Origin: Candidatus Hydrogenedentota bacterium | GTDB taxonomy: Bacteria > UBA8481 > J006 | Direction of reading: 5' to 3' | DNA length: 8,685 nt | Assembly (NCBI GenBank): GCA_003697085.1 | Contig: RFFU01000052.1 | Location: 1-8,685, forward strand | In this document: one piece after another, positions 4,560 through 8,544 of the stretch | Layout: every line of letters starts with the position of its first letter | Numbering within the stretch: the first letter of the stretch is position 1 | The notes under the pieces: model-generated | The model's database searches: none | Seen by the model: only the letters and a program-made list of their open reading frames with translations | Told to the model about the DNA's origin: nothing | Position numbers and translations under genes: made by a program

Positions 4560-4656
4560 TTTTGCCCCATTTCCCTTCTCCCTTTTGCCTTTTTCCTTTT
4601 GCCTTCTTGCTCTCCCTTTTGCCCTGCGCCTTTTGCCTTCTTCCTTTTGCCTTCCT
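4560..4656. repeat. TTTTGCC-type degenerate repeat array
   Basis: Plus strand reads as irregular units of TTTTGCC, TTTTGCCTT and CCCTTTTGCC separated by pyrimidine-rich spacers; the minus strand reads GGCAAAAGG. It is the same family as the block at 859-914. It ends directly at a TATAAA box in front of the Nramp-like gene. Confidence 0.7.
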
Positions 4657-4661
4657 ATAAA
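4633..4661 (+). promoter_or_regulatory. Candidate promoter of the Nramp-like operon
   Basis: TTGCCT (4633-4638), a 17-base spacer and TATAAA (4656-4661) resemble a sigma70-type promoter (4/6 and 5/6 matches). Transcription would begin near 4668, leaving about 35 bases before the ATG at 4704. The -35 box is itself part of the last TTTTGCC repeat units. No clear Shine-Dalgarno follows. Confidence 0.45.
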
Positions 4662-4703: not shown

Positions 4704-6110
4704 ATGCCGTGGAATTACCCATCTTACTCTCCTCCGCGCGGAATAACCGGGATTCTGCGGTCGTTCGGTCCCGGCGCGATCCTCGCTTCGGCCACGATCG
4801 GCGCCGGCGAGACGATCTTGGCGGTGCGCGCCGGAGCCTGGGGCGGATATGACCTCCTCTGGCTCATCTTCCTCGCTTGCCTGACGAAATCCTTCTTCCT
4901 GCTCTGGTTCCTCGGACGCTACGCGGCCTTGACCGGGGACAACGTCGCGGCGCGTCTGAAAGAATTTCCCGGGCCGCCGGGTTGGCTCCTCGTCTTCATC
5001 CTCTTCGCCGATCTCGTTCCCGCCGGTCCCGTCTTCGCCGCCATCGCCTCCCCCTGTGGAAAACTCATCGCGGACATCCTCGCTTCGTCGTTTCCCTCCC
5101 TCACGGGGCTTCTCGCCGACCCGCGAACCTGGGGAATCGCCTTCGCCTTGCTCGCCATCGGGCTCGCCGTCATCCAAAAATATGATTTCCTCGAAAAACA
5201 ACAGGTCTTCGTCTGTCTCGTGCTCCTCCTGGCGGTCATTCTCTCGACCCTCCTCGTTCATCCCAGCCTCAAATCCATCGTCGTCGGGCTCCTTTCCTTC
5301 GGAAAGGTTCCGAACGTCCCCCACTGGGCGGCTCACGCCGTTCACGCCGATCGGATCGGCCTCGAACTCGCCACTGTCTTCGGCTATGCCGGAAACATTG
5401 CGATGGGATACATCGTCTATGCCGACTTCGTCCGCGAAAAACGTTGGGGTGTCTATGCGGCCACGGAGCCCCCTCCCGAACCTTCGGCGCTGCCGATGGA
5501 CGAAGAAAACCTTGCCCGAGCCCGCGCCGGCTTGATCCCCCTCTGGGGCGACCTCGCCGTCACCTCCTTGCTCATCTTTCTCGTCACCGGCGCTTTTCTC
5601 ATCGCGGGAGCGGCCATCCTCAACCCGCGCCAAATGCTTCCGGCCGGATTCGATCTTCTCTCCAAGCAGGCGACTATCTTCTCCACAATCTCTCCCTACC
5701 TGATTCCGGTATACTATGTAGCGATCCTCTTCGCTCTCTGGGGAACCCTCAATTCGCTTCCCGAAATCTACGCGCGCGTTACGAGAGACTTCCTCGCCGT
5801 TCTCGCCCCGGAACGCTTCCGGAACCTGCAACTCTCTACCGTGATGCGCATTCTCGGAGCCTATTTCGCCGTGTGTGTCGTCGTTTTGATTGCCCGCGGA
5901 ACGAAACCGATGGCGATGATCCATTTCGTCGGCCTCTATTCCACGAACCTCGGCGTCGCCGCGGCAATGGCCGCCGCGCTCTGGCTCGATCGAAGATTGC
6001 CTCGCCCCCTCCGCTCCTCCCCCTTCTTCTTCGTAATGGGACTCCTTTCCTTCCTCGTTATCGCCGTCTTTTCCGGTATTTCGGCTTATCACCAGTGGTT
6101 TGTCTCGTGA
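4704..6110 (+). CDS. Divergent Nramp-like metal ion transporter
   Basis: The 468-residue integral membrane protein has about 11 hydrophobic segments, the size and layout of the Nramp (SLC11) family. Residues 21-60, FGPGAILASATIGAGE then GGYDLLWLIFLACLTKSF, match the first two Nramp helices. However, the canonical TM1 metal motif DPGN is replaced by GAGE (33-36). The helix expected to be TM6 reads FGYAGNIAMGYIVYADF (226-242) in place of the usual MPH-containing segment. This matches a variant group, annotated as Nramp-family transporters in Planctomycetes-like genomes, whose substrate is to my knowledge not established. Divalent metal uptake is therefore an inference; a different ion is possible. 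There is no good Shine-Dalgarno; an in-frame stop lies 10 bases upstream, so ATG 4704 is the first possible start. It is the first gene of a four-gene unit, and its stop codon lies inside a palindrome shared with the next gene's leader. Confidence 0.8.
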   Translation: MPWNYPSYSPPRGITGILRSFGPGAILASATIGAGETILAVRAGAWGGYDLLWLIFLACLTKSFFLLWFLGRYAALTGDNVAARLKEFPGPPGWLLVFILFADLVPAGPVFAAIASPCGKLIADILASSFPSLTGLLADPRTWGIAFALLAIGLAVIQKYDFLEKQQVFVCLVLLLAVILSTLLVHPSLKSIVVGLLSFGKVPNVPHWAAHAVHADRIGLELATVFGYAGNIAMGYIVYADFVREKRWGVYAATEPPPEPSALPMDEENLARARAGLIPLWGDLAVTSLLIFLVTGAFLIAGAAILNPRQMLPAGFDLLSKQATIFSTISPYLIPVYYVAILFALWGTLNSLPEIYARVTRDFLAVLAPERFRNLQLSTVMRILGAYFAVCVVVLIARGTKPMAMIHFVGLYSTNLGVAAAMAAALWLDRRLPRPLRSSPFFFVMGLLSFLVIAVFSGISAYHQWFVS

Positions 6111-6118
6111 GACAAACC
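6097..6118 (+). promoter_or_regulatory. Perfect inverted repeat spanning the transporter stop codon
   Basis: GGTTTGTCTC (6097-6106) and GAGACAAACC (6109-6118) are perfect reverse complements separated by GT. In RNA this gives about nine base pairs closed by a CGTG loop. The TGA stop of the transporter (6108-6110) lies in the loop and right arm, and the ATG of the next gene follows two bases after the stem. No T-run follows, so it is not a typical terminator. It could tune translation coupling, act as an RNA processing or stability site, or be a protein-binding site on DNA. Confidence 0.65.
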
Positions 6119-6120
6119 TT

Positions 6121-6576
6121 ATGAAAGAGACCTCCGAACCATCTCCTCAAGAACCGCCGAAGGGAGCACGCGAGACACTGCTCGATCTCGGAGCCGTGGC
6201 ACTCATTCTCCTTGCCGTCGTCATCGCCGCAATCCGCCTCTCCGGCCGAAAAAGCGATCTTCCCGCCGAAGAACCCGATCTCTCCCCGGCAACCGTATCA
6301 CTCCGCGTCCGGCTCGACGAAGCCTGGGCGGAGCCGGATCTGAGAGAAAAAGCGCTTCCGGGTGAAGAGGTCGTCTCCCTCAATGGGAATGTCCACGCGC
6401 GAATTCGATACCGCAACGGACGAACCGCGCAACTCATCGCCTCCGGACCGAAAGCGTTTTTGTACGGTGCCTCTCTCCTCCCCGGGGCCTACACGAGATG
6501 GAAGGGGGATGACTTCGTTCTCAGTGGTTTTATTCTGGCACGCGCGGAAACGGTCCCCTCCCCTCCGCCGCGGTGA
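6121..6576 (+). CDS. Small single-pass membrane protein (possibly DUF4330-like)
   Basis: The 151-residue product has a short polar, Pro/Glu-rich N-terminus, one membrane helix at about 20-40 (LLDLGAVALILLAVVIAAIRL) and a soluble C-terminal part of about 110 residues. That part is rich in short beta-like segments: VSLRVRLDEAW, EEVVSLNGNVHARIRYRNG, DFVLSGFILARAE. The helix is probably oriented with the domain outside the cytoplasm. The layout (an LDLGA-type helix followed by a small beta domain) recalls DUF4330 proteins, which I remember near polysaccharide genes; I am not sure of this match. ATG 6121 is preferred; an in-frame TTG at 6100 lies inside the palindrome. No Shine-Dalgarno precedes it, which fits translational coupling to the transporter. 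Its stop overlaps the ligase start by four bases, so it may assist that enzyme. Confidence 0.7.
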   Translation: MKETSEPSPQEPPKGARETLLDLGAVALILLAVVIAAIRLSGRKSDLPAEEPDLSPATVSLRVRLDEAWAEPDLREKALPGEEVVSLNGNVHARIRYRNGRTAQLIASGPKAFLYGASLLPGAYTRWKGDDFVLSGFILARAETVPSPPPR

Positions 6577-7793
6577 AACCATCTTCTTCCGGCGGCAGCG
6601 CCGCCGAAATCGACCCGTGCTTCGCCGATAACTCGTTTCTCCTTCCTGGAAAGCCGACTCCCGGTAAACTGATCGCACCGCTTCTTTTCCTGCTTCCCAT
6701 CTCGATGGTGACCGACTTTCTCCTCCCCCGCCTCTTCGATATCCTCTTTCTGCTCCTTCTCTTCCCCTTCTTGTTCGATCGAAATCGAAAGAATCGATAT
6801 CAATGTTTCGGATTCGAGCCGCTGTTGGCGTGTTATCTTCTTGTTGCGGCGATCGCCTGGGGCCGAGGACTTGTTATTGGAACCCTCGATGATCCTTTCC
6901 GCGGGCTTCCCACGGCGGCACGCCTTCTGGAGATTATCCTCTTTATCCCCGTCATCACCGTTCATACCATCGCTCCGCGGGAAAGACGATATTTTCTTGC
7001 TGGAATCACGGCGGCCTTTGTCGTCCATCTTCTCCTTTTCGCCGTTTTCGTAGGCCCGGCCGCACACCTTGCCGAGTCCGAGCCGGAATGGAGCCGGACC
7101 GCGGAACGGATCTCTTCGACGACGGCGCTTCTTCTCCCGATCGCCGCCGCTTTCGTTCTCTTTTCCCCAACATTTCTTCGCCTCGCCGCCCTTCTCCTCC
7201 TTCCCGTGCTCGTCGCGCTTGGAGGGAATCGCGCCTCTACCGTCGCGGGCTTGGTGGCGCTTCTCGTTGTCGTCCTCTTTGTTCCCTCATCGAGGCTCTC
7301 CGCGGCATCACGCCGGTTTCTCGGCGCCGTACTGATTACCTTCTTGCTCCTCTTTCTCCTTTCGAAACATGCACAGTACGGGCTCACAAGTCTTGCGGGT
7401 GAAAATTTCCCCATCGGTGAATACGGACGTTTCTATTCCTGGCATCAGGCCCTTCATGAATGGCGGAATACCCCCTTCCTGGGACGAGGCCTCGGCGCGG
7501 TACGCCGTACATTCTACGAGGGCGACTGGGTACGCGTGCTCCACGAGACAGGATTGACCGGACTCTTCTTCCTCCTCCTTCCCGCCGTGACTCTTCTCCG
7601 GATCTCGCTCGCCCGTCGAACCCCCTTTTCGCTCTCCATCGGCGGCGTCCTGCTCGTTCTGCTCCTCCGCAGCATCTTTTCCAGCCCGTTGCTTCGGATT
7701 TCAGATATCGGTATCCTGTTATTGATGATTTCCGTCCGCCGTTCAGTGTCCGTTCACCCCTCTGAAACGACAACCGGAAATCTCCCGATTTGA
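6573..7793 (+). CDS. O-antigen ligase / polymerase-like membrane protein (Wzy_C type)
   Basis: The 406-residue protein has about 11-12 hydrophobic helices and one large loop, as in WaaL/Wzy-type GT-C enzymes. These use undecaprenyl-linked glycans at the outer face of the inner membrane, either joining them to an acceptor or polymerising them. Typical features are GGNRAS (Arg220 at the end of a helix), then a loop with RFYSWHQALHEWRNTPFLGRG, ending in VLHETGLTGLFFLLL (His324-Glu325). A His in this loop is needed in studied WaaL ligases. Ligase and polymerase cannot be separated from sequence alone. Translation starts at GTG 6573, overlapping the stop of the upstream gene as GTGA. There is no Shine-Dalgarno, so translation is probably coupled. 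The first ~30 residues are polar and cytoplasmic. Neighbouring methyltransferase and GT2 genes fit a surface-glycan role. Confidence 0.85.
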   Translation: MKPSSSGGSAAEIDPCFADNSFLLPGKPTPGKLIAPLLFLLPISMVTDFLLPRLFDILFLLLLFPFLFDRNRKNRYQCFGFEPLLACYLLVAAIAWGRGLVIGTLDDPFRGLPTAARLLEIILFIPVITVHTIAPRERRYFLAGITAAFVVHLLLFAVFVGPAAHLAESEPEWSRTAERISSTTALLLPIAAAFVLFSPTFLRLAALLLLPVLVALGGNRASTVAGLVALLVVVLFVPSSRLSAASRRFLGAVLITFLLLFLLSKHAQYGLTSLAGENFPIGEYGRFYSWHQALHEWRNTPFLGRGLGAVRRTFYEGDWVRVLHETGLTGLFFLLLPAVTLLRISLARRTPFSLSIGGVLLVLLLRSIFSSPLLRISDIGILLLMISVRRSVSVHPSETTTGNLPI

Positions 7794-7833
7794 GTTCGCG
7801 ATGTCTTCCAACCCTCAACCACCGGAGAGATCG

Positions 7834-8544
7834 ATGAATTTGGATGTCAAAAAGGAAACAAAGGCCTACTTCGATTCGGTCGCCGAAAAATTCGAAGGAT
7901 ATTATGACGCACCGACGCTCGGCAATCAACTGCGGCATACTTTCGTTCAAGAACGAAATCGCCGCCATATTCTCACTTACCTTCAGTCAATAAAAAGCAA
8001 AAATACTCCCCTCAAAAACATTCTTGACGCAGGTTGCGGCAACGGAGATTTCTCGAATCGACTTGCGCGGGAATTCCCCGACGCTTTGGTTCACGGAGTG
8101 GATTTTTCGATGGAGATGCTGCGCCTGGCAAAAAAAAGACGCCGCAACGAAATACGGCGGCTCTCCTTCAGTCGCCAGGATCTTTCCCGTCCTCTCGCCT
8201 TCCCCACGGAAACCTTCGACCTTACCATTTGTCTCAACCTCCTCCACCACATTCCGCCGGAAAGACAAAATGAGACCCTTCGGGAATTGACACGAATCAC
8301 CCGTTCCCATCTCATCCTTGAGATTAAACGACGCCACCTGCTTTTTTCTGCACTGACTCGGAACCGTGCCTTTGGATTCCTCCCGGTATTCCCTACATCA
8401 ATCCGAGAAGTACGGCAAACCATTGAAAGCGCCGGCTTTGTTCTCGAACGACTCCTTCCCGTCTTCCGCCCCCTCTTCCTCTGCCCCGTCGTTGTCCTTG
8501 CATGGAAGCGAAAAGAAACCAACGACCGTTGTGAAGGTCGTTAA
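7834..8544 (+). CDS. Class I SAM-dependent methyltransferase
   Basis: The 236-residue product has a Rossmann-type methyltransferase core: motif I LDAGCGNGDFS (Asp65 to Ser75), the acidic residue binding the SAM ribose in HGVDFSMEML (Asp90), a motif II/III region with FDLTICLNLLHHIPPE, and LILEIKRRH after it. The N-terminus KKETKAYFDSVAEKFEGYYD is typical of methyltransferases acting on lipids, quinones or glycans. The substrate is unknown; it may methylate a sugar or lipid carrier made with the adjacent ligase. I chose ATG 7834 because GGAG lies 6 bases upstream; an in-frame ATG at 7801 would add 11 residues but has a weaker ribosome site. It follows the ligase by 40 bases and ends in a terminator hairpin, making it the last gene of the unit. 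Confidence 0.88.
   Translation: MNLDVKKETKAYFDSVAEKFEGYYDAPTLGNQLRHTFVQERNRRHILTYLQSIKSKNTPLKNILDAGCGNGDFSNRLAREFPDALVHGVDFSMEMLRLAKKRRRNEIRRLSFSRQDLSRPLAFPTETFDLTICLNLLHHIPPERQNETLRELTRITRSHLILEIKRRHLLFSALTRNRAFGFLPVFPTSIREVRQTIESAGFVLERLLPVFRPLFLCPVVVLAWKRKETNDRCEGR

Follow-up and report, generated by a model that had tools for sequence, protein, structure and literature searches.

A perfect inverted repeat over a transporter stop codon is probably a chance feature of an ordinary tandem gene junction in a Candidatus Hydrogenedentota bacterium

In contig RFFU01000052.1 of a Candidatus Hydrogenedentota bacterium (GCA_003697085.1; genome size 3.2 Mb), which we analysed as one window at its entire length of 8,685 bases, the stop codon of an Nramp-like metal transporter gene lies inside an inverted repeat (6097-6118), and the gene for a small membrane protein begins directly after it at ATG 6121. 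We conclude that this is probably an unremarkable junction of two tandem genes lying close together, which by chance carries a short perfect inverted repeat, because repeats at gene ends match the genome background and the relative compared does not share this one. If the two genes are coupled at all, this is most likely through ordinary reinitiation across the 10-nucleotide (nt) gap. What the analysis shows is the repeat with its spacing, its presence as one copy, the rate of such repeats in the genome background, and a computed accessibility of the downstream start that is average; co-transcription and reinitiation are inferred.

The repeat reads GGTTTGTCTC-GT-GAGACAAACC. Its two arms, 6097-6106 and 6109-6118, are complementary at every base (100%) and lie 2 nt apart, TGA 6108-6110 lies in its middle, and its end at 6118 is followed by TT and then by the ATG. 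The original prediction had described an inverted repeat with ten-base arms, the transporter stop in its centre, an end two bases before the next ATG, no T-run and no Shine-Dalgarno (SD) sequence for the downstream gene, all of which agree with the sequence: no T-run stands beside the repeat on either strand, and no SD-like 4-mer was found upstream of ATG 6121. Its wording "22-base perfect palindrome" holds for the fully complementary arms but not for the centre, where the G/T pair is not self-complementary and leaves an interrupted palindrome instead of a perfect palindrome of 22 base pairs (bp). Folded as RNA, the 22-mer by itself gives a 9-bp stem closed by a four-base CGUG loop (-10.7 kcal/mol, z -4.5). 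When 121 nt of context are folded, the result does not outperform shuffles (z -0.45), and an Rfam search of the window gave no match at the gathering score. It is possible that the right arm was copied by a template switch off the coding left arm, the transporter ending in QWFVS* here and in QYFS* in the relative compared. An assembly artefact is unlikely, with both reading frames intact and the repeat distant from the contig ends.

The genome background was drawn from sampled stretches, 489 kb for repeat counts and 1.99 Mb for stem and stop counts. The 489 kb contain 18 perfect repeats whose arms measure at least 10 and whose spacer is at most 10, compared with about 8 in dinucleotide shuffles. 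This corresponds to one per ~27 kb, or ~0.3 expected per 8.7-kb window, and most of the 18 are intergenic. In the 1.99 Mb there are 148 perfect stems that are 9 bp or longer and have a loop of 2-8, and such a stem overlaps 4 of 1,524 stops, which is no enrichment over the ~3 expected by our own arithmetic (148 repeats / 1.99 Mb x 1,524 stops x ~26 positions). By stability, the hairpin ranks 44th among 356 stop-overlapping hairpins of any kind and 19th among 118 at close tandem junctions. Given this rank and an overlap with stops near expectation, the hairpin is notable for its perfection, not for its stability or position. Two observations speak against a chance origin: none of 200 shuffles of the 22-mer folds equally well, the stem being unbroken and centred exactly on the stop, and stems whose arms measure 10 or more, with a loop of 2-8, overlap 3 stops where ~1.2 would be expected, a small excess being possible at such low counts.

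The original prediction proposed that the hairpin enforces strict coupling, hiding the downstream start region until ribosomes terminating at TGA 6108 open the stem. Such a role is consistent with a stem that spans -24 to -3 relative to the ATG and is stable alone, with a downstream gene that has no SD, and with precedents for the model (PMC12548453). We nevertheless consider it unlikely. The ATG lies outside the stem, and the cost of opening -15 to +15 around ATG 6121, a computed proxy, is 11.9 kcal/mol, essentially the genome median (12.0), and ranks 172nd of 337. The start is thus not closed to any unusual degree, an argument against a strict structural block, and by this measure no inhibitory structure covers the downstream initiation region. 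The missing SD is ordinary as well, because about half of the gene starts are without an SD-like motif (171 of 350 starts in this genome, versus 80% of random places). A review describes both an unfolding and a scanning model of coupling (PMC12548453), and structure just downstream of a stop was found to lower coupling in one screen (Chemla et al., as given in PMC12548453). No conservation was seen in the sole relative compared, which has another gene order. The junction resembles the RNA-unfolding systems of phage f1 VII-IX, MS2 coat-lysis and E. coli rpmI-rplT and atpHA (PMC12548453) in a downstream start that is poor on its own, but differs from them in that the computed cost of opening its start region is no higher than average and that no conservation was seen in the relative compared; coupling here is predicted from sequence.

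What stands of this proposal is the coupling itself, which is plausible from the geometry of the junction, namely a 10-nt gap on the same strand, no SD and an operon that goes on with a 4-nt overlap at 6573; enforcement by the hairpin is unsupported in view of the opening cost, the stability rank and the lack of enrichment at stops. Even with the hairpin set aside, the 10-nt spacing by itself makes coupling plausible. Stop and start lie on the same strand within ~20 nt of each other, as in short-gap termination-reinitiation, and short distances reportedly give the most efficient coupling (PMC12548453). Compared with termination-reinitiation at close or 4-nt-overlapping genes, the junction is alike in its 10-nt gap without an SD and in the GTGA overlap at the next operon junction, and unlike in having a gap instead of an overlap and a hairpin over the stop. 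According to the chance explanation, one mRNA probably carries both the transporter gene and the gene after it, and ribosomes ending at TGA 6108 could start again at ATG 6121, ten bases further along. The hairpin would be a background-level repeat melted by passing ribosomes, and its effect on start access or mRNA stability should be small at most.

Two further roles were considered for the repeat. The original prediction regarded it as an equally good binding site for a dimeric regulator, that is, as a DNA operator. The arms are twofold-symmetric around an unpaired 2-bp centre, but the repeat lies between close same-strand genes with no promoter-like site nearby, no regulator gene was found among the scanned open reading frames (ORFs) of the window, and the further genomic copies by which an operator might be recognised did not turn up: its own genome has none, even when 3 mismatches are allowed, and the nearest relative has none within 2. 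The copy search covered 60 genomes in total, these two included, and one two-mismatch match occurs in an unrelated genome. The operator idea is therefore not borne out, and we regard it as extremely improbable. Scarcely more credible is a hairpin for mRNA 3'-end formation or processing, or a terminator without a U-tract, that sets different mRNA levels for the transporter and the downstream genes. The position at a reading frame's 3' end would suit it; however, the next gene begins 2 nt later, and canonical terminators, GC-rich stems with eight T behind them, do occur in this genome, so that a stem lacking the U-tract is not the standard form here. An intrinsic terminator was rejected, as there is no T-run, TTATGAAA directly follows the stem and a terminator scan did not pick it up.

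Phylum-level comparison was made with one relative, G001 (PEWQ01000076). Its transporter ortholog is 65% identical and ends in QYFS*, compared with QWFVS* in the window. The gene downstream of it is mfd-like and convergent, where the window has the small-protein gene. The small-protein counterpart (27% identical) lies elsewhere from the transporter, upstream of a ligase-like gene, and this pair faces away from a ruvA-like gene; the mfd and ruvA labels come from reading translations, not from a family search. No repeat of this kind was found at the transporter or small-protein loci of this relative, whose gene order is different, and AT-rich imperfect repeats lie ~85 nt past its transporter stop. 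The adjacency of transporter and small-protein genes thus appears to be lineage-specific within the searchable genomes.

A different view of the junction disregards the hairpin. A possible five-codon ORF starts with GTG 6107, which overlaps the transporter stop (GTGA), and ends with TGA 6122-6124, which overlaps ATG 6121 (ATGA). Ribosomes at TGA 6108 would restart on GTG 6107, make MRQTL, stop at TGA 6122-6124 and restart at ATG 6121, the hairpin being incidental. The frame is open and shares 4 nt with each of the two genes; a 4-nt overlap is the commonest tandem junction in this genome (183 of 518). We defined eligible junctions as tandem, with a gap of 1-60 nt and NTGA at both stop and start. 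Among these, in-frame bridging spacing is favoured, being present at 20 of 36 junctions of the discovery set and at 4 of 6 of a second set, on which the already fixed hypothesis was tested; the idea arose from this junction, itself inside the first set, which makes that set post hoc, and the second set is tiny. Combined, 24 of 42 junctions have a bridging frame where one third would be expected (binomial p 0.0013; Fisher p 0.001 versus other junctions), and the enrichment is robust to altered start-calling rules. Against this, the frame is predicted from sequence, and the gene starts come from a simple home-made caller applied to one genome. We treat the enrichment as a lead, not a finding, and a relay at this junction as quite unlikely. 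A shade more doubtful is the wider idea that the lineage uses tiny relay ORFs with 4-nt overlaps at both ends to carry ribosomes over operon gaps, with GTG6107-TGA6124 among the shortest and the hairpin simply opened by the relay. The frame is like known short ORFs that join operon junctions by 4-nt overlap in its mode of joining, and unlike them in having five codons only, no repeat family seen and a sequence unique in the genome. A 10-nt junction in L050 (minus-strand start 11444, reverse-complement count) has the similar sequence GTGAGACGCAGGTTATGAAT (window: GTGAGACAAACCTTATGAAA) and a five-codon bridging frame too.

Features at and around the junction between the transporter and small-protein genes
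Feature	Coordinates	Strand	Remarks
Nramp-like divalent metal transporter gene	4704..6110	+	stop TGA 6108-6110; NCBIfam NF037982 Nramp_1, E 4e-22, above cut-off
Inverted repeat, 10-nt arms, 2-nt centre	6097..6118	.	RNA form: 9-bp stem, CGUG loop; single copy in genome
Possible five-codon ORF GTG AGA CAA ACC TTA TGA (MRQTL)	6107..6124	+	4-nt overlap with both neighbours
Small protein, probably with one membrane segment at the N-terminus	6121..6576	+	weak DUF4330 likeness, Pfam below cut-off
Wzy/O-antigen-ligase-like membrane protein	6573..7793	+	Pfam Wzy_C 32.1 bits, cut-off 31.7
S-adenosylmethionine (SAM)-dependent methyltransferase	7801..8544	+	start 7801 or 7834; Pfam Methyltransf_25 E 4e-22

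The Pfam Nramp match of the transporter is weak. The start of the ligase-like gene overlaps the small-protein stop by 4 nt, and the methyltransferase gene is the next on the plus strand. The DUF4330-like small membrane protein gene stands directly 5' of the Wzy/ligase-like gene (6121-7793), and the pair is kept in the relative (L016). Conservation of the pair in the only relative suggests that the two proteins work together. No relatives of the small protein were found on plasmids.

Other repeats are present in the window. A 41-base exact direct repeat lies at the contig end (1-41 and 154-194), with just these two copies in 2 Mb of genome. Runs of TTCCGTGT-TTCCGTGG type repeats are found between genes at 690-1020 (43 such matches in 2 Mb), as are low-complexity CCCTTTTGCC-type runs at 4560-4660 and 870-915, CCTTTTGCC occurring 158 times in 2 Mb.

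Our analysis illustrates how a perfect hairpin over a stop codon, striking as it looks, can be just what one would expect from the background of its genome. Should the bridging mini-ORFs hold with proper annotation and in other genomes, they would point to a simple and testable way for operons to keep coupling over short gaps.
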